Below are positions 2-14,560 of a stretch of 64,000 nucleotides of DNA, piece by piece. Made by a program: the position numbers and the translations under genes. Each line of letters begins with the position of its first letter. Position 1 is the stretch's first letter. Source of the DNA: Sanguibacter gelidistatuariae (lineage in GTDB: Bacteria > Actinomycetota > Actinomycetes > Actinomycetales > Cellulomonadaceae); NCBI RefSeq assembly GCF_900096585.1, contig NZ_FMYH01000001.1:186001-250000 (forward strand). The letters run 5' to 3'. The notes under the pieces are model-generated. The model was not told the DNA's origin. It made no database searches and saw only the letters and a list, made by a program, of their open reading frames with translations.

Positions 2-868
2 ATGCGAAGCGCAATCGACTCACAGATGTCCTACGACGGAAAACGAGTTCAAACCATCCTCTTCAACCATTTGGATGCGGACTGGCTGCGAGCAAACGTC
101 GATGCTACGCGCGACTTGTTCGCCGCAGCGGGAGGAGAACCTAGGCTCGTGCACTTCCCGAGCGGCAGAAAAGGTTTCCGCAACGTTCCTGTGAAGACAG
201 TCGATACTTTCTTGAAGTCGTACAAGTTCCACGAGGGCGCGGTTTCAATGACCTCGCGGCTTCTCACCAGTTACATCCGGAACGAGAATCCGAGCGGGGC
301 GCTGACAAGTTGGAACATTGTGATAGTCGAAGGCGATGCCGAGATGCCTACGATCGACTTGGGACTCACAGACCTAATTCACACAATCACTCGATCCCGA
401 ATGGGGTACTCACGGCCCGGACAGGCGAACCTGAAGTCGATCGCCTCCACCAGAGACCGCATTGCTGACGTTTCCTACACCAGTGAAGAGATCAGCGCAC
501 GGTTCAAGGATCTCGCCATCACGCCAGAGGGTGTCGGCTTCGCGCGACACGACACCGCATATCGGCAGCTACGCGCAGAAGACAACCACGGGACCGGACT
601 ACTGTGCATCTATCCCATAGACTCCACGTCGACCCCCCGCAACTGGGACGAAAACTCAGCTACGCAAACCCTTGCCAAGAATGCTCGATTCCCGCTCAAT
701 GCAGTTGATCACATGGTGGGAATCACAATCTTCTTCCCGGACGCGACGGTGCAGAATTCAAGCGTGGCCTACAAAAGCGCAGATCTTAGCGGCTTGATCA
801 TTGAGGATCCGGCCGACGAAGCGGCTGAGATCAACGCAATCGATGCAGCGGGGGAGGTCGAAGCATGA
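2..868 (+). CDS. Z1-domain protein, C-terminal part (predicted restriction/defence ATPase subunit)
   Basis: Only the C-terminal ~288 residues lie in the window; the frame is open to the left edge, so the Met at base 2 is probably internal. Z1 proteins are P-loop ATPases/helicase-like subunits found with MutL-like ATPases and PD-(D/E)XK nucleases in defence operons (family knowledge). The part seen matches the post-ATPase region of that family: a KFHEGAV-type segment, a serine/threonine-rich middle, then 'GTGLLCIYPID' and 'MVGITIFFPD', which correspond to the conserved 'RGLLLIYPLD ... VGFAISFP' tail. No Walker motifs are visible because the N-terminus is missing. The stop overlaps the next start by four bases (ATGA), so the genes are translationally coupled. 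Confidence 0.75.
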   Translation: MRSAIDSQMSYDGKRVQTILFNHLDADWLRANVDATRDLFAAAGGEPRLVHFPSGRKGFRNVPVKTVDTFLKSYKFHEGAVSMTSRLLTSYIRNENPSGALTSWNIVIVEGDAEMPTIDLGLTDLIHTITRSRMGYSRPGQANLKSIASTRDRIADVSYTSEEISARFKDLAITPEGVGFARHDTAYRQLRAEDNHGTGLLCIYPIDSTSTPRNWDENSATQTLAKNARFPLNAVDHMVGITIFFPDATVQNSSVAYKSADLSGLIIEDPADEAAEINAIDAAGEVEA

Positions 869-1851
869 GCAACATGGAGAGCCATCTCGCCTGGCTTCGT
901 GCCACCTCACAGCCGACTCAGTTCACTCTCCGTGACACAGACGTAAAGACGGCTGCCGGGATCGTTGCGGTTGCAGTGGATGCCGAAGACCTCCCAGTAC
1001 TTATCATCCCGATAGACGATGATGAACCGGTCTGGACCGACGAACGCAGTTGGGGCGTGAAGGTTACGACTCACCCAGGGTCCTTCACCGGAACGACCAG
1101 CCGCGTCGTTGTGGTCCGATGCACGGCCACGGAGGTCGCTCAACCATTCACACATCTGGGCACCAGTCTCCTTGAGGCACTCGCCATCGATTCGACCCAA
1201 CCCGTGAAGACCTGCGCGACAGTGCTCTCGTCTTGGCAGCACCTGTTCGCTACAACGTCAAGGGGACTTCTCACAGACGAAGGAGTCGTCGGACTTCTGG
1301 CCGAGCTTCACGTTCTCGAATCGCTCTGTGCGCAGTGGGGCCCCCAACGCGCACTTGATGCCTGGCGGGGACCACTCGGCGAGCCTCACGACTTCACTGG
1401 ACCCGCAGGGGCCCTCGAGGTCAAAGCGACGACACATGCCTCGTTCCTCAAAGTGCACGTCAACGGTCTGACTCAGCTCGAGCCGCCACTGGGCGGACCA
1501 CTTCACCTTCACCTCGAGGTCATGAGCGCTAGTCCATCTGGCGACACCCTGCCGGGGGCGATTGGCCGGCTCATCTCAGCCGGAACGTCAGCCGCCCGGC
1601 TGTGGGAGCTGCTTGCCGAAGTGGGCGTCCGCTGGGCAGATGAAGACCTGTACCGGGAGCGGCGATTCGCGACCGTAGATTCCAAGACATACGCCGTAGA
1701 TGACGACTTCCCCAAGATCGTCCCGACAATGTTCTCATCTCAGGAAGCGTTAAGCGCAATCATGCAGCTTGAATACGTGATTGCTCTAGATGGCGCCACA
1801 CCCTTATCCAACTCATCCACCTCGACCGCTGTAAAGGTCCTTGGTCAATGA
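865..1851 (+). CDS. DUF4420-type PD-(D/E)XK nuclease
   Basis: This 328-residue protein carries a PD-(D/E)XK nuclease core at about residues 140-190: 'GLLAELHVLESL' (helix with conserved Glu), 'HDF' (Asp176) and 'LEVKATT' (Glu185-x-Lys187). That spacing is the signature of the DUF4420 family, predicted DNA-cleaving subunits that travel with Z1 and MutL-like ATPases. It overlaps its neighbours by four bases at both ends (865-868 and 1848-1851), so the Z1, nuclease and ATPase subunits are probably made in fixed ratio. Inference: it is the effector nuclease of the island. All catalytic residues appear intact. Confidence 0.8.
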   Translation: MSNMESHLAWLRATSQPTQFTLRDTDVKTAAGIVAVAVDAEDLPVLIIPIDDDEPVWTDERSWGVKVTTHPGSFTGTTSRVVVVRCTATEVAQPFTHLGTSLLEALAIDSTQPVKTCATVLSSWQHLFATTSRGLLTDEGVVGLLAELHVLESLCAQWGPQRALDAWRGPLGEPHDFTGPAGALEVKATTHASFLKVHVNGLTQLEPPLGGPLHLHLEVMSASPSGDTLPGAIGRLISAGTSAARLWELLAEVGVRWADEDLYRERRFATVDSKTYAVDDDFPKIVPTMFSSQEALSAIMQLEYVIALDGATPLSNSSTSTAVKVLGQ

Positions 1852-3701
1852 CCAAAATCGGCGTATACAGCGAGAGATTCGCGGCTACGGGCGCGGCAGA
1901 CGCCCGCGTCACAAAACGCGCAATGGGCAAGTCCCATGTCCCGTTCTGGCAGCTCTTCCTACGTGAGACTCTCCAGAACAGTTGGGATGCGCGGACAGGT
2001 GACGCTATCGAGTTCACCGTCAATGCGGCGCGACTAGACCCTAGACGCTCCGAGCTACTGCGGGACACCATCTTCCGGGAGCATCCAGCAGACCCAGCCG
2101 TTGCAGGAACACTTCGTGCGTCCTTGGACTCGCGCGCAACGCGGATCTTGACTGTCACTGACCACAAGACACGAGGACTCGGCGGTCCCACCCGCGCAGA
2201 TATTGCAGATCCCTCCAGCGGAAATACGCATTTTGTTGACTTCGTACGCAATATCGGGCGTGCTCGCAAGAAAGGCTATGCAGGCGGCACTTATGGGCTC
2301 GGAAAGGGAGTGCTTTTCACGGCTAGCAGCGCCGCGACATGCGTCGTCTACACACAGACCATGCATGAGGGCTTCGTCACTCCACGACTCATCGCGATGT
2401 GTGTGTCAGACGACTCCTACAGACACAGCGGCATCCTCCACACCGGAAGACACTGGTGGGGGAACACGGACTCTGAAATCGTAGAGCCGATCGTGGGTGC
2501 GCCTGCGCGCGCACTAGCCATAGATCTCGGGATTACGCCTCTAAGAGCAGAGGAGCTGGGAACGTCGATCACGGTAATCGACCCCGCCCTTCGCTTTGCA
2601 GATTCCACCGACAAACCCGCCGATACTGATGAAAAGATCGTCGCCCAGATAAGCGAAGCGGCGCGGCGTTGGGCTTGGCCACACATGGTGGACGCAGGTT
2701 CAGGTCCATCTATCAAGTTCTCATTCGTTGTCAACGGCAACGAATTGCAGATCGTACCACCTCAGAACGATTCGTATCTTGGACCATTCGTCGCTGCCTA
2801 CTTGCTGGCGAATAGCTCGCGAGACGGGGAGCCACCACGCAATACCCACCCCTTCACGGTAGAGCCCATAGTGGGAACCCGGCTAAAGGAGAACAAGCGG
2901 CTGGGCACCTTAAGCTATACGCAAGAGGATCGCACCATCATCGGGACCGAGAAGGACTCATCAGAGATCGCTCTAATGCGCGAACCGCGCTTCGTCGTGA
3001 AGTATCTCCCGATCAGCGACACGTCGCGATACAGGGTTCGTGGCGTATTCTTGGCACATCCATCAAATGATGAGGCTTTCGCACAATCAGAACCCGTCGC
3101 ACATGACGACTGGAATCCCCAAAACCTAGAGCTTGAGGCCCGCGCTCGCAACCCGGTTCGAATCGCTCTCAAGCATATCGGTGAACGCTTTAGGGAAATA
3201 TCCAGGGGAACTCCCCCTCCGTCCGCCTCCGAGGACCAGGGGGGGGTCACTGCCGTCTCTCGCGCTCTCGGTTCCGCACTGAGTTCGGCTCTCGGAACCG
3301 GCGCAGAGTATAAGCGCTCAAGGACCTCAACTTCTCGACCCAGACCGTCCGCGCCCAAGACATACCGCGTTACGATGTCGGCTCCGCCGGTACTGCAACA
3401 TGACGGACGCGGTTTAACTATCTCATTCCCCTTCACGGTGCAGACTGGGCCCGACTTCACTGCGTCGGGGGAGCTACTCCGTGCAATCGCTCAGGTCCTG
3501 CTCGATGACGGGCGACCAGAGGTCGACCCTCCGATCGGCGCAAGTGGCCCCGAGATACTCGGCTGGTTCCGAGGAGAAACCCTCATCTCAGCCGCCGATG
3601 AAGTAGCACTCAGCGACGTGTTGGGCGGCGAGCACCGTGTTCTTGTTGCACCCCCACCTAATACTTCCGTCGCGCTCGGCATCGAGCAGGTGAAGCGCTG
3701 A
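1848..3701 (+). CDS. GHKL (MutL/Hsp90-like) ATPase of the defence operon
   Basis: 617 residues. The N-terminal third has a Bergerat ATP-binding fold: N-box 'LFLRETLQNSWDAR' (Glu40, Asn44, Asp47), G1 'LTVTDHKTRGLGG' (Asp105) and a glycine lid 'GGTYGLGKG' (about 146-154). The middle resembles the transducer region of MutL-like proteins. A Ser/Pro/Arg-rich low-complexity linker lies at about residues 445-505 before a C-terminal domain I do not recognise. In related systems such ATPases are proposed to sense or signal to the Z1 and nuclease subunits. The start overlaps the nuclease stop (ATGA), and the stop is shared with the next start (TGATG at 3699-3703). Confidence 0.75.
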   Translation: MTKIGVYSERFAATGAADARVTKRAMGKSHVPFWQLFLRETLQNSWDARTGDAIEFTVNAARLDPRRSELLRDTIFREHPADPAVAGTLRASLDSRATRILTVTDHKTRGLGGPTRADIADPSSGNTHFVDFVRNIGRARKKGYAGGTYGLGKGVLFTASSAATCVVYTQTMHEGFVTPRLIAMCVSDDSYRHSGILHTGRHWWGNTDSEIVEPIVGAPARALAIDLGITPLRAEELGTSITVIDPALRFADSTDKPADTDEKIVAQISEAARRWAWPHMVDAGSGPSIKFSFVVNGNELQIVPPQNDSYLGPFVAAYLLANSSRDGEPPRNTHPFTVEPIVGTRLKENKRLGTLSYTQEDRTIIGTEKDSSEIALMREPRFVVKYLPISDTSRYRVRGVFLAHPSNDEAFAQSEPVAHDDWNPQNLELEARARNPVRIALKHIGERFREISRGTPPPSASEDQGGVTAVSRALGSALSSALGTGAEYKRSRTSTSRPRPSAPKTYRVTMSAPPVLQHDGRGLTISFPFTVQTGPDFTASGELLRAIAQVLLDDGRPEVDPPIGASGPEILGWFRGETLISAADEVALSDVLGGEHRVLVAPPPNTSVALGIEQVKR

Positions 3702-4585
3702 TGGCAGCTGTCGCTTCGACCTTTCCTTATCTCACGATTCCCAATGAAGCAGTGATATTTGAACGCTGGGTCGTTAGCTGCGGCTCGGCACTGCCATCTG
3801 TCGATCCCGAAGCCCTCCCAGACTGGAGCTATCACCAAGTCCTGAACATCGGAGCGACCGTCACGATTCCGTACGACCAAGTACGGCTCCATCTCCGTCT
3901 AGCAAACGATGCACAGTTAGGCGCAACAATCGCTTGGCAGTGCCTGGCGACTCAGAGCAGGGGCGCCTCGATACCAGTACCAATTATGGCGGATACGACT
4001 GCTACCCGACTCACACTCGACGGCGCGCCACTTGGTGGGATCCTGACGCTCTCACTTCACCTAGTGCTTTTAAATCCCGGTTCCGGACCCATCGATCCAC
4101 TTTCGCCGACACTGCCGGGCGCTATTCTATGGACTACTAAGCACTCCATTTTGCTTGAAGGTGATGCTGCTCGATTCCCGACAGCAAAGGCGGACTTCTC
4201 AGCACTCGACAATGGCTTTCCGAACGCGCACTGGTGGCTTGAGCTCCACATTGACGAAGACGCGCTGGATGCACCGTCGGATAGCGCAATGCGACTTTGG
4301 CTAAACGAGAACAGCGTGATAGCCAAATCAATACTCGATGATGATTCCGCTGGCGGCGCCCTGGTCAAGATCATGACAAGCGATGTATACCGGCAGCTAA
4401 TTCGTGCCGCCTTCGACATCGACACATTTTCAATGGAGATCGATTATGGGATCGGAAGCATCGGCCACACGCTGCAAATGCTATTACACATGCTTGACTA
4501 CTCGGATATCAATCTTGCCCGGTCCGCTCACAGAGAAGATCCCACTCGCCTAGACGCTCGACTCCAATCGGTGGTGAACAAGTGA
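3701..4585 (+). CDS. Uncharacterised subunit of the defence operon
   Basis: 294 residues that I do not recognise. No nuclease, ATPase or helix-turn-helix motif is visible. The N-terminal half is rich in beta-type sequence ('LTLDGAPLGGILTLSLHLVL') and Asp/Ser residues. The C-terminal half is acidic and helical, with 'WWLELHIDEDALD' and a closing segment around 'LLHMLDYSDINLARSAHR'. It starts at the stop of the GHKL ATPase (TGATG), and its own stop overlaps the following GTG (GTGA, 4582-4585), so it belongs to the same translational unit. Co-translation implies a structural or sensor role in the complex. Specific function unknown. Confidence 0.7.
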   Translation: MAAVASTFPYLTIPNEAVIFERWVVSCGSALPSVDPEALPDWSYHQVLNIGATVTIPYDQVRLHLRLANDAQLGATIAWQCLATQSRGASIPVPIMADTTATRLTLDGAPLGGILTLSLHLVLLNPGSGPIDPLSPTLPGAILWTTKHSILLEGDAARFPTAKADFSALDNGFPNAHWWLELHIDEDALDAPSDSAMRLWLNENSVIAKSILDDDSAGGALVKIMTSDVYRQLIRAAFDIDTFSMEIDYGIGSIGHTLQMLLHMLDYSDINLARSAHREDPTRLDARLQSVVNK

Positions 4586-5358
4586 CACACCTTTCCTATC
4601 CACGCCTTGATCGCAGTCGGGCGCAAAAGCTTGTCAGCGAATACCAGTTGCTGACTGTCCGTGAGCTCGCATCCTATGTTGATTTCGATATCGTTCACGC
4701 AGCTTTCTACCCGCTGAGCATCGAACATGTAAGCCGCAGTCGGCTAGAAATGATCAGGGTGGCAATCCTCGACGTTGCGATCCGCCACGGCTTTCCGGAA
4801 CTCCAAGGCAAAGGGGGCTACGTCGGGTTCGATCAAGACGTCGCAAGGCTTCTGGTAGACCTTATGGAAATTGTGCCGTCCGAGGCTATGACTGAAGATG
4901 TCTGGTCATTCCTTTCCTTAAAGGTGATGCCTGACGTTACTGCTTGGAGATTCCCTGCCCGCCTTAGCGATGACGGGACGCAGTCCGCCACTTGGAAACG
5001 CTGGATCGGCGATCCTCGGAACGCGTTTCGCCGCCTTTGGATCCGTGGATATTCGCTCGGCACCGATCTGGCCGGCGTTCTGGGCGAAGACAACTACGTC
5101 GCCATTTTTGAGCGTCCGACCATTGGGGGCGATCCGCGCGTTGCGCGCAGGATCGCTTCATGGATGCGAGACCTAAATCGTGCCGATGAGCGCAACGGTG
5201 GAAGCGCCCAGGACATCATGCGGGACGCGATGAAACGCTTGCGTCGTCGATACGGCACCACAGCACTTGGCGCCCTCTCAGACCAGCAACTTGACGATAT
5301 AGTCAATGCCGTATTTCTGGCAGCCGTCGAGGCTACGATGCCTCTCAGCGTCGCTTGA
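4582..5358 (+). CDS. DUF6339-like protein of the defence operon
   Basis: 258 residues starting at a GTG that overlaps the previous stop. The sequence resembles DUF6339-type proteins found beside MutL-like ATPases in actinomycete islands: an N-terminal helical segment ('LVSEYQLLTVRELASYVDFD'), a central 'DVWSFLSLKVMPDVTAWRFP' block, 'ERPTIGGDPRVARRIAS', and a C-terminal basic helix 'MKRLRRRYGTTALGALSD'. No catalytic motif is obvious; the basic helix could contact nucleic acid (inference). It is the last gene of the overlapping unit. 77 bases separate it from the methyltransferase, which probably has its own promoter. Family assignment is from pattern memory, so treat it as moderate. Confidence 0.6.
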   Translation: MTHLSYPRLDRSRAQKLVSEYQLLTVRELASYVDFDIVHAAFYPLSIEHVSRSRLEMIRVAILDVAIRHGFPELQGKGGYVGFDQDVARLLVDLMEIVPSEAMTEDVWSFLSLKVMPDVTAWRFPARLSDDGTQSATWKRWIGDPRNAFRRLWIRGYSLGTDLAGVLGEDNYVAIFERPTIGGDPRVARRIASWMRDLNRADERNGGSAQDIMRDAMKRLRRRYGTTALGALSDQQLDDIVNAVFLAAVEATMPLSVA

Positions 5359-5435: not shown

Positions 5436-7376
5436 ATGGATCCTGACACCAGCCACTCGGCCACCAAGCAAGTCCGAAGCATCGCGCTCCGCCTGTCCCA
5501 TCATCCGGAGCACGTTAGCGATGCGGAGGGATTCGCACTGTTGTGTGCGCGTCTGCGACGAGACCAACCGGACAGACTGCTTGTAGCCGACCTCTTCTCA
5601 GGCGCTGGGGGCCTCAGCTACGGCCTAGAAGCGGCGGGTATGCGCGTGGTCTTCGGCGCAGACCACTACTCCGAGGCAAACGCCACCCACGCCCATCACT
5701 TCGCTGGTCTCAGCGTCGATTGGGATCTCAGCGAAGTCGGCGTCGTCGAAGAGGTCGCAGCGCTCCTGCGAGAGTCGAGGATCGATGTCTTGGCTGGAGG
5801 CCCCCCGTGCCAACCCTTCTCGAAGGCAGGTAGATCAGGGATCCGTCATCGCGTACGCGAGGGCCTAAGAGATCCCATCGATGCGCGTAGGGATCTATGG
5901 CGGTCCTACTTAGAGGTAGTCCGCCTCTCGATGCCGAGGGCGGTCATCATGGAGAACGTCCCCGATATGGCACTAGACCGCGAAATGTTCATCCTCCGGA
6001 GCATGGCGCTCGACTTGGAGCACCTCGGATATTCCGTGTCCACCAGGATAGTCCAGACATCCGACTATGGTGTACCACAACATCGACAGCGACTCATTCT
6101 GGTGGCACTGCGCCATAATCTGGAGTTTGTTTGGCCAGAACCTGTCGAGCGCCCTGTGACTCTTCGTCAAGCTATCTCGGACCTCCCCTCGGTCCAGGGT
6201 GGCTGGCACATTGCGGAGAATCGCGCGGGATTTCAGACCTATTCTGGAGCTATCGATCCGTTCCAGCGAGAGATGCGTGCGAGAGTTCCTAGGACTCATG
6301 CAGGGCGCATATACGATCACGTCACCCGACCAGTACGAGAGGACGACTTGGTCGCGTTCGACTTGATGGACAATACGACGCGATACTCGGACCTACCTGC
6401 GGAACTGCGGCGATACAGGTCTGACATTTTCGATGACAAGTATAAGCGATTGGATTATGACTCTGTTTCGCGGACGATCACAGCGCACATAGCCAAGGAT
6501 GGCTATTGGTACATTCATCCGGAGCAGAATCGGACAATCACCGTTCGAGAAGCCGCGCGGATCCAGACGTTCCCTGACCATTTCCGATTCGCCGGCACGC
6601 CCACGGCCGCATTCAAGCAAATCGGAAACGCAGTACCACCACGTCTTGGGGAGGCGATTGGTGGCGCAGTTGCAGCTGCGATACGCAGCAGTCACCCTGC
6701 AGGCCTCAGTCGTGAGGATACGGCGGCTCTACTCGACGCTTGGTGGCGCACTACCGTCCGGGTTTCAATGCCGTGGCTCAAGGGCGCCACGCGGTGGCAG
6801 GTCGTGGTCGGCGAGCTTCTGCTCGAACGCTCCAGTCAGCTCGTTCGGGAGGCGCTTTGGCCGGTAGTACGGGACTGGCGCGAGCCGGCGGACACCCTCA
6901 GCGCCAAAGATGCACTCATTCTGGTGGCCAACTGGATTAACCGGCAGAGCGCTGCTGAACAGCTGATTCGTATTGCTGAGAGTCTAATCCTCGCGGACGC
7001 TGAGTCGGTCAGTCTGGTCGCCTTGGATCAAGCAGTCTTGGATGGCGCCCTGCCGTCGGGAGTGGGAGATCTGGCAACTCTGGCTGGCGATTCCGCGATC
7101 ACAGACGATGATGAGCTGCCGGTCATCGTCAACCAAGCGATCTTGCGAGTTGCTTCTCGATATGCGAATGACCTTAGCCGTGCGAAGAACAAGAATAGCG
7201 ACGGCCGACTCGCGGTGGCGCGCTTGATCGGATTTGGCAGACCCAGTCGAAATGCACACGTCGCACTGTTGGAGATCGGGAGGTCAATTTGCTCGACCAA
7301 GGATCCGGAGTGTTCAGTGTGCCCGCTAGTCAGGACCTGTGCCTACGCAGCGCTGCACTCCCTCGCTACCGACTAG
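5436..7376 (+). CDS. C5-cytosine DNA methyltransferase fused to an Nth/MutY-like HhH Fe-S domain
   Basis: 646 residues, longer than a typical single-domain C5 methyltransferase. Residues 50-410 hold the ordered motifs: I 'DLFSGAGGLSYGLE', IV 'GGPPCQPFS' (catalytic Cys125), VI 'ENVPD', VIII 'QHRQRL', and X 'QIGNAVPPRL'. The target-recognition region lies at about 225-335. Residues 430-640 look like a helix-hairpin-helix glycosylase: 'WQVVVGELLLERS', a hairpin-like 'LPSGVGDLATLAG', and a closing Cys619-x6-Cys626-x2-Cys629-x5-Cys635, exactly the 4Fe-4S loop spacing of endonuclease III/MutY. The usual catalytic Asp position ('VDTNVxRV') reads 'IVNQAILRV' (Asn566) and no hairpin Lys is seen, so glycosylase activity is uncertain. 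Expected role: host DNA marking for the adjacent restriction genes, perhaps with repair of deaminated 5-methylcytosine. The stop codon coincides with an IS insertion point. Confidence 0.85.
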   Translation: MDPDTSHSATKQVRSIALRLSHHPEHVSDAEGFALLCARLRRDQPDRLLVADLFSGAGGLSYGLEAAGMRVVFGADHYSEANATHAHHFAGLSVDWDLSEVGVVEEVAALLRESRIDVLAGGPPCQPFSKAGRSGIRHRVREGLRDPIDARRDLWRSYLEVVRLSMPRAVIMENVPDMALDREMFILRSMALDLEHLGYSVSTRIVQTSDYGVPQHRQRLILVALRHNLEFVWPEPVERPVTLRQAISDLPSVQGGWHIAENRAGFQTYSGAIDPFQREMRARVPRTHAGRIYDHVTRPVREDDLVAFDLMDNTTRYSDLPAELRRYRSDIFDDKYKRLDYDSVSRTITAHIAKDGYWYIHPEQNRTITVREAARIQTFPDHFRFAGTPTAAFKQIGNAVPPRLGEAIGGAVAAAIRSSHPAGLSREDTAALLDAWWRTTVRVSMPWLKGATRWQVVVGELLLERSSQLVREALWPVVRDWREPADTLSAKDALILVANWINRQSAAEQLIRIAESLILADAESVSLVALDQAVLDGALPSGVGDLATLAGDSAITDDDELPVIVNQAILRVASRYANDLSRAKNKNSDGRLAVARLIGFGRPSRNAHVALLEIGRSICSTKDPECSVCPLVRTCAYAALHSLATD

Positions 7377-7386
7377 GGCATGTCTC

Positions 7387-8019
7387 CTATAGGCGAGTCC
7401 AGGTGATGCAGGCGGAGAGGACGACGGCGGCTCGGTAGGTGATGGCGAGCTTGTCGTAGCGGGTCGCCAGTCCTCGCCATTGTTTGGTCAGGGCGAAGGA
7501 GCGTTCGACGACGTTGCGCCGCTTGTAGGTCTCGGCGTCGAAGGCGGGTGGGCGACCGCCCGCGGATCCTTTGCTTTTGCGGGCCGCGACCGAGTCCTTC
7601 TTCTCCGGGATGACCGCCGTGATTCTGCGCGTGCGCAGGTGCCGGCGCACGGGTCCGGTGGCGTATGCCCGGTCGGCCAGAACCGCGTCTGGACGGGTGC
7701 GGGGGCGCCCGGCGCCCGCGCGTGGGACGCGGATGTCGGCCAGGACCTCTTCGAGCATCGCCCCGTCATTGCGTTGCCCACCGGTGATGACCGCGGCCAG
7801 CGGCCGCCCGCGTCCGTCGACGACGTGGTGGATCTTGGTGCTCAGCCCGCCACGGGAACGGCCGATGCCGTGACCTGCGGGTTCACGCGTCCCGCCCAGC
7901 GGGCTGGGGACGAACCCCTCGGGCAGATTCGTGTGATTCGACCTCGCCCCCTGTGTCCTGCTCGGGGCGCGTGGTGTTCGTCGCGTGCTGATGAGCCCGG
8001 TTGATCGTGGCGTCCACAC
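7387..8019 (-). CDS. IS5-family transposase, second frame (OrfB, made by -1 frameshift)
   Basis: Carries the C-terminal half of the DDE domain: 'IGRSRGGLSTKIHHVVDG', the second Asp in 'AVLADRAYAT', and the Glu region 'YKRRNVVERSFALTKQWR'. Its first ~23 codons overlap OrfA in another frame; the protein-like part begins after the G5 slippage site near 7950. The open frame is undamaged, so the element may still be active. The ORF boundary at 8019 is nominal because independent initiation is unlikely. Confidence 0.78.
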   Translation of the reverse strand: MWTPRSTGLISTRRTPRAPSRTQGARSNHTNLPEGFVPSPLGGTREPAGHGIGRSRGGLSTKIHHVVDGRGRPLAAVITGGQRNDGAMLEEVLADIRVPRAGAGRPRTRPDAVLADRAYATGPVRRHLRTRRITAVIPEKKDSVAARKSKGSAGGRPPAFDAETYKRRNVVERSFALTKQWRGLATRYDKLAITYRAAVVLSACITWTRL

Positions 8020-8320
8020 TCACCGTCCAGTCGATCTTCCCGTCGGCGTCCGCGCGGGCCAGCAACGCGGCCAGCACCTTGTCCCAGGTGCCGTCCTCGG
8101 CATACCTGCGGTGCCGCTTCCACACCGTCTGCCACGGCCCGAACTGTTCACGAGGCAGATCCCGCCACGGAATCCCCGTGCGATACCGGTAGACGATGGC
8201 CTCGACCTTGCCCCGGTCATCCCAGAACGGATGCCCACGCCGCCCCGCGTTCGACGGCAGCAACGGCGCGATCAGCTCCCACTGGGCATCGGACAGCGAT
8301 TGGAACCGGGATGACGTCAC
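7883..8320 (-). CDS. IS5-family transposase, first frame (OrfA)
   Basis: Encodes the N-terminal half of the transposase: 'LSDAQWELIAPLLP', 'YRYRTGIPWRDLP' and the first catalytic Asp in 'VSVDATINRAHQH'. I place the start at the GTG giving 'VTSSRFQSLSD' (8320), because an upstream GTG at 8362 lies inside the terminal inverted repeat. A run of five G on the coding strand (7947-7951) lies where the frame must shift by -1 into the second frame, so a full DDE transposase would be a frameshift product. Confidence 0.8.
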   Translation of the reverse strand: MTSSRFQSLSDAQWELIAPLLPSNAGRRGHPFWDDRGKVEAIVYRYRTGIPWRDLPREQFGPWQTVWKRHRRYAEDGTWDKVLAALLARADADGKIDWTVSVDATINRAHQHATNTTRPEQDTGGEVESHESARGVRPQPAGRDA

Positions 8321-8410
8321 CCCACGATCATCGCGCACGCACCCGACACATATAGGAGACACGCCCTAGCCTAGGCCACCCAGGCGCTACCAAGAATTAG
8401 CTGTTGGCCA

Positions 8411-9754
8411 CTACATTAGCCCCAAGTTTCGGTAAATACTGGGGGACGTCTCCTTGAGAAGCTTCAGCGTCTTTTCAAGGCTCTCTAATCCACCAGATCG
8501 GAGTGCTGCGGCTCGGAGTGCAACTCCGACGGCCAGCAAGTCCGTTTCGCCGGCCGACTTCTTGGTGGAATGCACCCGATCCTCTCCTCCTGCCCGTCGG
8601 TACCGCTCACCCGCATGTATGCAGAGCTCTTGAATGGGTTTTTCGAGCATGGGGCGTATCTCGGGCGGTAGGTTGATCTTCATCTTCGCAACATTGAGCT
8701 GGAACGCGACGTCAAGCTCCGTGGGAAAGTCAATCGAAGCACGCGCAAGTTTGGTGTGCTCATCCAAGCCGCGCAATCCGCTCCAGCCACCGAACTGGAC
8801 GAGGCGATCCACGCGGTAGAAGTATAGGCCTTGCTGTCGATTCCATTTCAGCGGGCCAGAAAGTGCGTCAAATTCTTCGACTGTATCGAATTCATTCTTT
8901 GCAGGCAGCACATACCGCTGGACACGAACGTCGTGAGCAGTTCCATCAACCGTGATACTGAAGACCTGCCCAGGTAGGAGCTGTGTTTGCTCACAGGTGG
9001 ACGCAAACGGATCCCAAGCTTTCAGTTTCTGCCCGTCCACGATTATGTTGACCTTCCCGGCGGCGGCGCTCCCAGAAAGATACCGGTGAAAGACTACTGA
9101 AAGATGCTCTGCGACTTTAGTTGAGGCGTTCTTCAAGCGTCGCTTTCCTACGCCGGAGTTCGCCGTTCGTTCATTTAGCACCCTGTCGAGATTCTCCAGT
9201 ACAACAGTTGTGCCACTGCCCGTAGCACCGAGCTGCGCATCACGTTCGCGGACAACCGCGCTGGCTTGGCCTTCGTGGATCAACCACTCGTCACGCGCCG
9301 CCACGAGATCGAGATCGAGGGTTCTCCGATTGACGGACCCTCGACCTCTCCGATACTTGGAGAGTACGGTGAGCCGACGGCACTGAGAAAAGGAGGCGGT
9401 CTTCAGGCCAAGACCGAATCGACCGAGTTCGCCCGGTTTGTAGTCGCGACGGCTGCCGAAGCGGAGCGCCTCGTGGAGGCCGTTGATCGGCATCCCCTCG
9501 CCGTCATCGCTGACGACGATTGCTGAGTCACGGCCGTGAAACTCGAAATCCACGTGAACCTCACGTGCACCAGCGGCGATCGCGTTGTCGATGAGGTCGG
9601 CGATCGCAGTGGGCGTGTCGTACCCAATGTCGCGCAACGACTCGGTTAACCGTGCAGCTGACGGGGCCACTCGCTCTTCGGTCACTTCCACCATCTCCTT
9701 CGGATCCTCCACCAGGATCTCATACCGACGGCCCTGAACTCGGACACGACTCAA
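8411..9754 (-). CDS. Second GHKL-type ATPase of the island
   Basis: 447 residues with a clear N-terminal Bergerat fold: N-box 'ADLIDNAIAAGA' (Asp56, Asn57), G1 'VVSDDGEGM' (about 80-88) and glycine lid 'GRFGLGLKTASFSQ' (about 111-124). These match the HATPase_c_3/MutL-Hsp90-like class; no histidine-kinase H-box or receiver domain is present. The C-terminal half holds conserved-looking blocks such as 'RQQGLYFYRVDRLVQFGGW' that I know from stand-alone ATP-binding proteins in defence islands. Its 3' end faces the IS element, and it is transcribed divergently from the small gene at 10003. GC content is lower than in the later parts of the window, as in the first operon. Confidence 0.75.
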   Translation of the reverse strand: MSRVRVQGRRYEILVEDPKEMVEVTEERVAPSAARLTESLRDIGYDTPTAIADLIDNAIAAGAREVHVDFEFHGRDSAIVVSDDGEGMPINGLHEALRFGSRRDYKPGELGRFGLGLKTASFSQCRRLTVLSKYRRGRGSVNRRTLDLDLVAARDEWLIHEGQASAVVRERDAQLGATGSGTTVVLENLDRVLNERTANSGVGKRRLKNASTKVAEHLSVVFHRYLSGSAAAGKVNIIVDGQKLKAWDPFASTCEQTQLLPGQVFSITVDGTAHDVRVQRYVLPAKNEFDTVEEFDALSGPLKWNRQQGLYFYRVDRLVQFGGWSGLRGLDEHTKLARASIDFPTELDVAFQLNVAKMKINLPPEIRPMLEKPIQELCIHAGERYRRAGGEDRVHSTKKSAGETDLLAVGVALRAAALRSGGLESLEKTLKLLKETSPSIYRNLGLM

Positions 9755-10953: not shown

Positions 10954-12030
10954 CTACGCGTACAGCACCCCCCGGAACCCCGGATACGGCTCCACCAGCT
11001 CGTCGCTCCCTCGCCGCACTGCGACGATCTCGTCCAGCCCCTCGCCCGCCACGTAGTACCTGCCCTTCGTCTCCCCCACCGCCCGCAGCAGCCCGGCGTC
11101 GGCCAAACGTTTGAAGTCCCGAGTTGCCGAGCGCTCGTCGATCTCGGCCGTGCGCACGTACGTCGATCGCCGCACGCGGAACCCGACCACGGCGGAGAAC
11201 AGCAGGTCCAGGGTCCGCTCGGGAAGCTTGTGGAGGCGAGCTACGTCGTCGAGCATCTCCCAGACGACGGCCGCACGCGCCATGCGGATCTGGACGGTCT
11301 GCGCCTGGAAGTGGTGAGCTCGCAGGCAGAACTTGAGCCAGAGATGGGCGTCCTGCTCCGGGCTCCACACCCCCGCGCTCGTGCGCGCCAGCACCTGGTA
11401 GTAGTCGTCGGTGTTGCGCCCGAGCCACTCCTCGATGCTCGACAGCTCGGGTGCGCTGAGCCCAGCACGGGTGAGCACCAGGGTGTGCAGCGCGCGGGCC
11501 ATCCGGCCGTTGCCGTCGCGGAAGGGATGGATCATCACGAGGTTGAGGTGAGCCATCGCGGCCTGGACGAACGGGTCCTCTCCGGACCGGATCGCGAGCA
11601 CGGAGACGAGCTCGTCGACCATTCCAGGAACTTCCGAAGCCGCCGGCCCCTCGTAGACGTTGCGGTTGAGCTTGTCGTCGTGGACAAAGATCTCACCGCG
11701 TCGGTACTGACCCGGGCTCTTGTCGAGGGCATGGGAGCCCAGCATGAAGTGCATGCTGCGCAGCACCGAGGAGTCCAGGGTGAAGTACTCGTCGGCCGCG
11801 GTGGCCAGGACAAAACCGAGTGCCTGGCGGTAGCCCCTGATCTCGGCGAAGGTTCGCTCGTCCGCGCTGATCGGCTCCTCGCCGTCGATCGCGGCGTCGG
11901 CCTCGTCGAGCTCGACGTCGTAGCCCTCGATGCTGTTGGATCCGCGGATGGCACGGGCGACCGCGGTGCGGCGGAGGCGGCTGACCCGGCGCCTGGGCGT
12001 GCGGAGGTAGTCGGACAACGTGGTCCGCAT
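10954..12030 (-). CDS. Fic-domain protein (predicted AMP transferase) with N-terminal inhibitory motif
   Basis: 358 residues. The catalytic Fic motif 'HPFRDGNGRMAR' is complete (His for catalysis, GNGR for phosphate binding). An N-terminal helix carries 'SNSIEGY', which fits the (S/T)xxxE(G/N) inhibitory motif, so this is a class II Fic enzyme held inactive by its own helix. The C-terminus has a winged-helix-like segment ('ATRDFKRLADAGLLRAVG') as in Fic/DOC-HTH proteins. Fic enzymes usually transfer AMP to a target protein; the target here is unknown. The gene sits between the uvrA-like gene and its gutted copy, which suggests it arrived with a partial uvrA segment. Confidence 0.85.
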   Translation of the reverse strand: MRTTLSDYLRTPRRRVSRLRRTAVARAIRGSNSIEGYDVELDEADAAIDGEEPISADERTFAEIRGYRQALGFVLATAADEYFTLDSSVLRSMHFMLGSHALDKSPGQYRRGEIFVHDDKLNRNVYEGPAASEVPGMVDELVSVLAIRSGEDPFVQAAMAHLNLVMIHPFRDGNGRMARALHTLVLTRAGLSAPELSSIEEWLGRNTDDYYQVLARTSAGVWSPEQDAHLWLKFCLRAHHFQAQTVQIRMARAAVVWEMLDDVARLHKLPERTLDLLFSAVVGFRVRRSTYVRTAEIDERSATRDFKRLADAGLLRAVGETKGRYYVAGEGLDEIVAVRRGSDELVEPYPGFRGVLYA

Positions 12031-12055
12031 GGCTTCAAGCCACCGGTGACGCGAC

Positions 12056-12090
12056 CCGCCCCTACCGCCCCTACCGCCCCTACCGCCCCT
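12056..12090. repeat. Tandem 9-bp repeat (CCTACCGCC) at the 3' end of the uvrA-like gene
   Basis: At least three perfect copies (12061-12087) with partial copies on each side run across the stop codon of the uvrA-like gene. On the coding strand each unit reads CGG-TAG-GGG, so every repeat brings another stop codon. A single unit is kept at the end of the gutted uvrA copy (10550). Confidence 0.7.
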
Positions 12091-14560
12091 CCGAGTGCGA
12101 CACTAGCCGCGCCGCCAGATACGGCGCTGTAACACTCCCCTCCACCCGAGCCACCTCCTCAGGCGTCCCCGTAGCCACCACTTGCCCCCCGTGGTCCCCA
12201 CCCCCAGGCCCCAGATCGATCACCCAGTCCGCGCTCACGATCGTGTCGAGATCGTGCTCCACCAGCACCACGGTGTTCCCGGCGTCCACCAACCGGTGCA
12301 GCTGGCGCAGCAACAGCGCGATATCAGCCGGGTGCAACCCCGCCGTCGGCTCGTCGAGCAGGTACAGCGCGTGCCCGCGGCGGGCGCGCTGCAGCTCGGT
12401 GGCCAGCTTGATCCGCTGGGCCTCCCCGCCGCTGAGCTCGGTAGCGGGCTGGCCCAGGCGCAGGTAGCCCAGCCCCACCTCGCGCAGCGTCGTCAGGCTG
12501 CGCGCGGCGGCCGGCAGGTCCGCCAGGAAGTCGGCAGCCTCGTCGACGGAGAGTCCGAGCACCTCGGCGATGGTCTTGCCGCGGTAGACGATCTCCAGCG
12601 TCTCGGCGTTGTAGCGCGCTCCGTGGCAGGTGGGGCACGGTGCGTACGTGCCGGGCAGGAAGAGCAGCTCGACCGAGACGGAGCCCTCCCCCTGGCAGGT
12701 CTCGCAGCGTCCTTCGGCGACGTTGAAGGAGAAACGCCCGGCTCCGTAGCCCCGTTCGCGGGCCTCGGGGGTCGCGGCGTAGAGCTTGCGCACCGCGTCG
12801 AAGAGGCCCGTGTAGGTCGCCAGGTTGGAACGCGGCGTGCGGCCGATCGGGCGCTGGTCGACGCGCACCAGCCGGTCGAAGGCCTCCAGCCCGGTCGCGT
12901 CGTCGACGTCGATCTCGAGCTCGCTATCCTCCGCGTCGTCGGGCGCTTGGCCGAGGTGGCGGCGCACCAGCTCGGCGAGCACCTGGGTGACCAGCGTCGA
13001 CTTGCCCGACCCGGACACCCCGGTCACCGCCGTCAGCACGCCCAGCGGCACCTCGACCGAGACCCCGGAGAGGTTGTGCCGGCTGATCCCGTGCAGGTGC
13101 AGCCACCCGTGGGGTGTGCGCTGGGGTCGCTCGAGCGGTTCCGCGCGGCCGAAGAGGTACTTCCCGGTGACCGACGCCTCGACGTGCTCAAGACCGGCGA
13201 TCGGCCCGGAGTAGAGCACCTGTCCCCCGTGCTCGCCGGCTCCGGGGCCGATGTCGACGACCCAGTCCGCGCGACGCACGATGTCCAGGTCATGCTCGAC
13301 GACGAACAGCGAGTTGCCCGCGCCCTTGAGCACGTCGAGCACGTCGAGAAGCGGCTTGGCGTCGGCCGGGTGCAGCCCCGCCGAGGGCTCGTCGAGCACG
13401 TACACGACCCCGAAGAGCCCCGAGCGCAGCTGGGTGGCGATGCGCAGGCGCTGGGCCTCCCCGGGCGAGAGGGTCGTGGAGGTGCGCCCCAACGAGAGGT
13501 ACCCCAGCCCCAGGTCGAGCAGCACCTGGATCCGCTCCACGAGGTCGGTGCACAGGCGCACCGCCACCTCGGTCGCCTCGCCGGAATCGGCCGACGACGT
13601 CGCCGCACCCACCTCGGTGAGCTCGGCTACCGGACGGAGCAGAGCCCGCAGCTCCACGAACGACAACGCGTTGGTCTCGGCGATGCTCAGGCCCCGAAAG
13701 GTGACCGTCAGGGAGTCCGCCCGCAGTCCGGTGCCGTGGCAGAGCGAGCACGCGGCGCTGCGGACGAAGCGCATCGCCTTGTCTCGCATCATCTGGCTCT
13801 TGGAGGTGGCCAGGACGTGGTGGACGTGCGCGCGGGCGCTCCAGAACAGCCCGTAGTACCCATGGTCGATGCGGTCCCGCTCGGGCTTGATGAGCACCTT
13901 GGGCTGCTCGTCGGTGAACAGCAGCCACTCGCGGTCCTTCGCCGTCAGCGAGCGCCACGGAGCATCGACGTCGATCCCCAGCCCGGCCACGATGCTGCGC
14001 AGGTTGGCTCCCTGCCACGCCCCCGGCCACGCGGCGATCGCGCCCTCGCGGATGCTCAGCGACGTGTCCGGCACCAGGAGCTCCTCGCTGACGTCGTGCT
14101 CCTCGCCCAGCCCTTGGCAGCGCGGGCAGGCGCCGGCCGCGGTGTTCGGGGAGAACGCCTCCGCCCCCAGGCGCGACGCACCGGCCGGGTAGGTCCCGGC
14201 GCGCGAGTAGAGCATCCGCACGAGGTTGGACAGGGTGGTCAGCGTGCCCACGCTCGAGCGGGAGGTCGGGGCGCCACGTCGCTGCTGCAGCGCCACGGCG
14301 GGCGGCAGCCCGGTGATCTCCTGCACGTGGGGAGCGCCCACCTGCTGCAGCAGCCGACGGGCGTATGGAGCCACCGACTCGAAGTAGCGACGCTGTGCCT
14401 CGGCGTAGAGCGTCCCGAAGGCCAGTGAGGACTTGCCGGAGCCGGAGACGCCGGTGAAGGCGACCATCGCGTCCCGTGGCAGGTCGACGTCGATGTTCTT
14501 GAGGTTGTGCTCGCTGGCTCCGCGGACATGGACGAAGGAGTCGTTCGGATCGTGGGGCAC
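12080..14560 (-). CDS. Short UvrA-like ABC ATPase (UvrA2/DrrC class)
   Basis: About 826 residues from the GTG at 14560 (giving '[20 protein letters not shown]'), versus about 950 in canonical UvrA. The N-terminal Walker A is '[19 protein letters not shown]' and the second is '[17 protein letters not shown]'. Both signature/Walker B regions are present ('[15 protein letters not shown] ... [12 protein letters not shown]' and '[15 protein letters not shown] ... [12 protein letters not shown]'). Zinc-finger cysteines are seen in 'CPRCQGLG', 'CSLCHGTG', 'CETCQGEG' and 'CPTCHGA'. The shorter length and sequence fit the paralogous UvrA group linked to DNA damage or drug resistance rather than the housekeeping excinuclease subunit; the UvrB-binding region seems reduced. 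An upstream in-frame ATG (14665) would add 35 unlikely residues. Confidence 0.85.

Follow-up and report, generated by a model that had tools for sequence, protein, structure and literature searches.

Very-short-patch repair is known from the Dcm-Vsr pair, and the T:G mismatch glycosylase Mig.MthI from the vicinity of a methyltransferase system. The MZA anti-phage system is the origin of family names that stand in PADLOC and NCBIfam. Here, a 64,000-nucleotide stretch of Sanguibacter gelidistatuariae DNA (contig NZ_FMYH01000001.1, positions 186,001 to 250,000; the window) was analyzed for a gene that joins a predicted C5-cytosine DNA methyltransferase to a domain of the MutY/Mig.MthI glycosylase type. 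The catalytic Asp of these glycosylases was missing from the fused domain in every relative examined.

The locus resembles each of these systems in part. As in Dcm-Vsr, a C5-methyltransferase is found with Vsr near, and a MutL-like ATPase is present. In contrast to Dcm-Vsr, there is an additional glycosylase-fold domain, and the host genome has no MutS_V match. With Mig.MthI (1kea) the C-terminal domain (C-domain) shares the fold, the iron-sulfur (Fe-S) loop, a profile match over the full domain and, in most rows, the MutY-type Glu. However, it is fused to a methyltransferase, lacks the Asp and the Tyr at the position of Tyr126, and has mostly lost the hairpin glycines. The catalytic domain of MutY gave the best profile and fold matches, but the fusion lacks the Asp and the C-terminal 8-oxoguanine (8-oxoG) domain, and the pocket Arg and Asn are mostly gone. 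MzaB-, MzaC- and MzaD-like proteins in the window's cluster recall MZA; AIPR (MzaE) is missing, and genes for an ATPase, a conserved protein (c10) and a DUF6339 protein stand there instead. For the MORC/paraMORC-helicase restriction operons, the main text of Iyer et al. (2008, PMC2292703) mentions no HhH or glycosylase domain, unlike the fusion described here. The cluster type and each of the domains were known already. A methyltransferase fused to a glycosylase domain without the Asp in any row examined did not turn up in the literature search; no title or abstract opening concerned such a fusion in this search, whose coverage leaves out many subscription journals.

Domain structure of the fusion protein

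The gene and its parts were placed as follows.

5436..7376, plus strand: fusion of a C5-methyltransferase and a MutY/Mig-type HhH-GPD domain, 646 amino acids (uninterrupted frame, profiles, fold)
5436..6686, plus strand: methyltransferase part, residues 1-417 (Pfam match, invariant catalytic columns)
6687..7373, plus strand: C-domain, residues 418-646 (profile, AlphaFold2, Foldseek)
7131..7133, plus strand: Asn566 codon, aligned with the catalytic Asp of MutY/Mig.MthI (phmmer, profile, alignment)
7188..7232, plus strand: family-specific motif N585-x-x-[ST]-D-G-R-x7-G599 (alignment; conservation absent from glycosylases)
7290..7340, plus strand: four-Cys loop Cys619/626/629/635, C-x6-C-x2-C-x5-C (translation, alignment)

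The Pfam family DNA_methylase matched residues 50-411 (expectation value, E, 3.8e-55), and the fusion scored over the TIGR00675 cut-off. PCQ and ENV are catalytic motifs of C5-methyltransferases. The columns P124-C125-Q126 and E173-N174-V175 were invariant in a 59-row full-length family alignment, which omits 8 of the 67 rows of the main type (type A): four whose match starts only near residue 49 and four near-copies. By these sequence features the N-terminal part is a C5-cytosine DNA methyltransferase of predicted activity. A preliminary description of this DNA had placed a methyltransferase followed by an Fe-S-loop domain at 5436-7376; coordinates and frame proved exact, and profiles matched both parts.

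To collect relatives, genome contigs were scanned once with the fusion protein. This gave 86 confirmed relatives, of which the best 80 were retained, corresponding to 78 loci. The fusion with a recognisable C-domain was present at 67 of the 78 loci (67 of L004-L075, none of L076-L081).

The C-terminal part alone matched the NCBIfam MutY model TIGR01084 with E 4e-9, far under the curated cut-off of the model. A phmmer search with the single C-domain sequence found MutY and Mig.MthI (1kea), each at E of about 2e-4. The 67-member profile matched MutY 5kn8 (3.4e-18), Mig.MthI 1kea (1.4e-16) and endonuclease III 9nzd (1.2e-10). An AlphaFold2 model of the C-domain had a mean predicted local distance difference test score (pLDDT) of 92.5 and a predicted template modelling score (pTM) of 0.89. 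When this model was compared with the PDB by Foldseek, 50 of 91 matches at E<=10 were listed; among the matches listed, all were relatives of MutY, Mig.MthI or endonuclease III, with TM scores (query) of 0.52-0.69. By profile and fold, the homology to glycosylases spans the whole C-domain. Pfam EndIII_4Fe-2S was matched by 36 of the 67 members. Pfam HhH-GPD, in contrast, was absent from the 20 families matched at E<=1 by any of the 67 members, which counts against the HhH-GPD call. The pattern C-x6/7-C-x2-C-x5/6-C was found in 72 of 78 domain-bearing rows (86 aligned rows, with 8 lacking the domain set aside), and in type A the four loop cysteines were kept in 67, 66, 67 and 66 of 67 rows. On fold, profile and four-Cys loop the C-domain is a member of the HhH-GPD superfamily, [4Fe-4S] branch, with a predicted cluster. 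The preliminary description had proposed such a domain, to be compared with Nth, MutY and Mig.MthI by structure prediction and to be given up if close homologues lacked the loop. The predicted fold is indeed of the MutY/Mig.MthI/endonuclease III type, the four cysteines are in place, and the loop recurs in the homologues. The model of the full-length fusion had a pTM of 0.89, which suggests a fixed arrangement of the two domains.

Loss of catalytic residues and separate repair genes

The residue comparison rests on an alignment of 67 fusions of type A, 9 of type B (a divergent methyltransferase-HhH gene of a second kind) and 41 glycosylase homologues. The glycosylases were search hits, for which the labels MutY-like (36) and Mig-like (5) were assigned in this analysis. 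The catalytic Asp was found in 0/67 type-A and 0/9 type-B fusions vs 41/41 glycosylases. In the window protein N566 aligns with this Asp. Type-A rows carry Thr here in 34 cases, Asn in 14, Gly in 9, Ala in 4 and Ser in 2, with Ile, Lys, Arg and Pro in 1 each. The hairpin (GxG) was also affected: Gly538 was present in 24/67 and Gly540 in 4/67 type-A rows, each being present in 41/41 glycosylases. Tyr at position 542 (Mig.MthI Tyr126) was found in 0/67 vs 41/41. The combination of catalytic Asp and GxG hairpin that marks HhH-GPD glycosylases was absent from the 67 type-A rows.

The substrate pockets were compared in the same way. Of the MutY pocket residues, which were taken from PMC2714593, Arg19 was retained in 11/67 type-A rows and Asn140 in none. 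At the positions of Mig.MthI Ala50/Leu187, Ala was found at position 468 in 16/67 and Leu at position 609 in 47/67. The residues that characterize Mig.MthI as a T:G glycosylase (Asp, Tyr126, Glu42, Ala50/Leu187) did not occur as a set (Asp 0, Tyr 0, Glu 51 of 67), and neither did the features of MutY (Asp138, Arg19, Asn140, C-terminal 8-oxoG domain); the last of these is absent because the fusion terminates after the Fe-S loop. A new motif was nearly invariant in type A, with N585 in 62, S/T588 in 66, D589 in 56, G590 in 66, R591 in 66 and G599 in 67 of 67 rows, and is without conservation in the glycosylases. Position 589 was Asp or Glu in 61/67 type-A rows and Asp in 9/9 type-B rows.

The preliminary description had noted Asn566 in place of the expected Asp and the absence of the hairpin Lys, and had suspected a glycosylase that does not work, perhaps a module for reading DNA or sensing redox state instead. 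The replacement of the Asp was confirmed, and its loss throughout the family upholds the suspicion. The Lys is absent as well; by itself this is uninformative, since the 41 glycosylase homologues carry Tyr there. In the aligned sequences the missing Asp, unlike the missing Lys, is the informative loss.

Charges on the DNA-contact face differed too. The mean net charge between the first two cysteines was -0.06 (type A) and -0.11 (type B) vs +1.7 in MutY-like and +2.0 in Mig-like glycosylases. The GPD loop had -3.6 in type A and -0.7 in type B vs about 0 in glycosylases, and the region of the new motif +2.0 and -0.3 vs about -0.8. Judged by sequence charge, the changes in type A speak against DNA contact of the canonical base-flipping kind, though not against DNA binding of every kind. 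The ratio of nonsynonymous to synonymous substitution rates (dN/dS) for the ten pairs with the lowest dS among 178 was 0.17-0.44 for the C-domain and 0.07-0.28 for the methyltransferase. On these close pairs, the C-domain is evidently not in simple decay.

Vsr was found near the fusion at 59 of 67 loci by profile and at 63 of 67 when tblastn was added, the matches at L053 and L068 being partial and at the locus edge. The strict Vsr catalytic pattern was present in 35/60 Vsr genes; the Vsr of the window genome has D-G-C-F-W-H. At L064 (Stenomitos), Vsr was not found in the stretch examined; an Asp-bearing stand-alone glycosylase (11831-12601) lies there directly after the Asp-less fusion. Among five further fusion loci, Vsr was found at L144, L150 and L151 and not at L149 or on the Synechococcus plasmid (L139/L140, 32 of 50 kb covered). 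A strict association of Vsr with the fused domain was refuted by methyltransferases that lack the domain: two of three such loci in Actinomycetota have Vsr (L145, L148; not L146). Beyond Actinomycetota, Vsr was not found at six of six such loci (L076-L081) in the stretches examined. A fourth DUF4420 locus, L147, had no methyltransferase in its stretch.

Role of the fused domain

As every relative examined lacks the cutting residue, the fused domain was probably reused for docking or sensing, not for repair. We favour a non-catalytic docking or regulatory module, with a probability of roughly 55%; the docking step is what we infer. The methyltransferase would mark the genome and Vsr would repair deaminated 5-methylcytosine (m5C), while the fused domain would tie the methyltransferase to the GHKL neighbour or to Vsr, or would steady it on DNA. 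The family shows the fold of a repair enzyme taken up by a DNA-marking enzyme, its catalysis probably lost, in a cluster of the restriction/defence type, and maintained in many species. Fused Asp-less, stand-alone Asp-bearing and domain-free forms make a natural comparison set for the role of a glycosylase fold unable to cut. The same set bears on how deaminated methylcytosine is handled in MutS-less bacteria.

Several observations weigh against a non-catalytic docking module. Glu460 (MutY Glu37; Mig.MthI Glu42) is Glu in 51/67 and Asp in 10/67 type-A rows, and this retention in the alignment is the strongest argument that the active site has not been wholly lost. The basic helix 567-577 (R571, R575) is retained, with a charge of +2.55 vs about +2.9 in glycosylases. 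In type B the GPD loop is not acidic and the domain is basic (+3.3), so that the charge argument applies mainly to type A. Over 178 pairs, most of them distant, dN/dS of the C-domain had a median of 0.48 (methyltransferase 0.27) and a maximum of 1.08. A MutL-like gene was not found in the stretch examined at L058, L064 and L068.

Retention of fold, Fe-S loop and basic helix, with R571 in 67/67 type-A rows, would also suit a reader of lesions or methyl state. The dead domain would stand in for MutS: it would bind T:G or hemimethylated target sites and pass these on, to the GHKL ATPase and to Vsr. Vsr and the MutL-like gene are usually near, and MutS_V had no match in the host genome vs a match in 11 of 14 control genomes. 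However, type A has largely lost the hairpin glycines, both pocket residues (Arg, Asn) and the positive charge of the Fe-S loop, and Vsr also stands beside domain-less methyltransferases, as at the two Actinomycetota loci above. We consider such a reader possible but rather unlikely. Still more doubtful is an extended version, a self-contained m5C upkeep module for MutS-less bacteria, in which a dead T:G glycosylase would sense the mismatch or methyl state and pass sites to the MutL-like ATPase and Vsr. If true, marking and fidelity would be coupled via recognition, not cutting.

The domain might instead be a vestige, a Mig-type repair gene that stood next to the methyltransferase gene, fused with it by chance, lost its job to Vsr and persists solely because the methyltransferase now needs the domain to fold. 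Short stand-alone Asp-bearing relatives that adjoin a methyltransferase gene (5/5 examined), and domain-less methyltransferases in the same kind of cluster, fit this idea. It is nevertheless improbable given the new, nearly invariant motif, the purifying selection among close pairs and a tree that does not nest the fusions in the stand-alone group. We give equally little weight to a redox or iron sensor, in which the [4Fe-4S] cluster would switch methyltransferase activity. Its four cysteines are kept in 66-67 of 67 type-A rows, but three of nine type-B members (L066, L069, L070) lost them and yet retain other parts of the domain, which weakens redox sensing as the central function. Such clusters also occur in MutY and endonuclease III, neither of which is known as a redox switch of another domain; this too counts against a sensor. 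An enzyme with an altered centre, in which Glu460 (Glu/Asp in 61/67) or the conserved D589 of the new motif stands in for the lost Asp, is very improbable: the Asp position varies widely, Glu460 is missing from all nine type-B rows (A 6, T 2, V 1), and hairpin and pocket residues are lost. Marking and repair in one chain, an idea raised in the preliminary description, is not supported: the catalytic Asp is absent from all family members examined, and nearly every fusion has separate repair genes in its neighbourhood.

Gene cluster and distribution

The following features accompany the fusion in the window.

865..1851, plus strand: DUF4420 PD-(D/E)XK protein, MzaD-like (family matches)
1848..3701, plus strand: putative paraMORC-like ATPase (label of this analysis; no Pfam match, weak PADLOC PDC-M33A match)
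3701..4585, plus strand: c10, conserved protein with no family match (kept in related loci)
4582..5358, plus strand: DUF6339 protein (Pfam)
7377..8365, minus strand: inserted IS4/5-family insertion sequence (IS) element between the fusion and the MutL-like gene (DDE_Tnp_1 and DUF4096 in two overlapping frames)
8411..9754, minus strand: MutL/MzaB-like GHKL ATPase, convergent with the fusion (family matches)

CTAG is present at both outer ends of the IS element (7373-7376, 8366-8369), and the frame of the fusion survives the insertion because its TAG stop lies inside the left CTAG. The MutL-like gene was found at 64 of 67 loci and was convergent and within 600 bp in 54 counts. No AIPR (MzaE) gene adjoins the window's cluster, while one is present at 28/67 related loci. 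Fic/DOC family genes flank the cluster on both sides (window 10954-12030, minus strand; L003:3277-4488, plus strand). In L003 an 805-codon frame (stop to stop; 6874-9288, plus strand) ends at the start of the Vsr frame; it has no Pfam match and lies outside the clusters common to related loci.

Five of the 72 loci L004-L075 stand outside the 67-locus count (L056, L066, L067, L069, L070); in L066, L069 and L070 a divergent Cys-less C-domain falls under the threshold. L083 and L084 were also excluded from the 67-row set. By record titles of the 78 loci, the hosts are mainly Actinomycetota. Beyond this phylum they comprise single bins of Spirochaetales and Planctomycetota, two of Pseudomonadota (L012, L055), the unclassified bin L068 and the cyanobacterium L064, where the taxonomy of metagenome bins may be wrong through misplacement. 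The relative on the Synechococcus plasmid is 36% identical to the fusion. Among 396 genomes sampled from Actinomycetota, four including the window's own had a domain match at E < 1e-20 in a fusion-length frame, and one further fusion (G520) was missed at this limit.

In L035, L039, L047, L062 and L072 the type-B gene follows a short way downstream, in opposite orientation; in L066, L069, L070 and L071 it occurs without companion. Two methyltransferases per locus might serve one strand each of an asymmetric site. The C-domains that lack the cysteine loop (L066:3416-4033, L069:6781-7359, L070:4771-5358) retain T-D of the new motif.

In a C-domain tree with 23 of the 67 type-A rows, a single branch (100/99) separated 41/41 glycosylases from the fusions. 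The positions of several long branches, among them L064, L063 and type B, were unsure, and type A was not a single clade (2 changes). Genomic context suggests that the fused domain may derive from stand-alone Mig-like glycosylases, but this tree does not show such a descent. In the one plasmid record that matches over nearly the full length, the fusion is called just "DNA cytosine methyltransferase", and annotation can conceal the fusion in this way.
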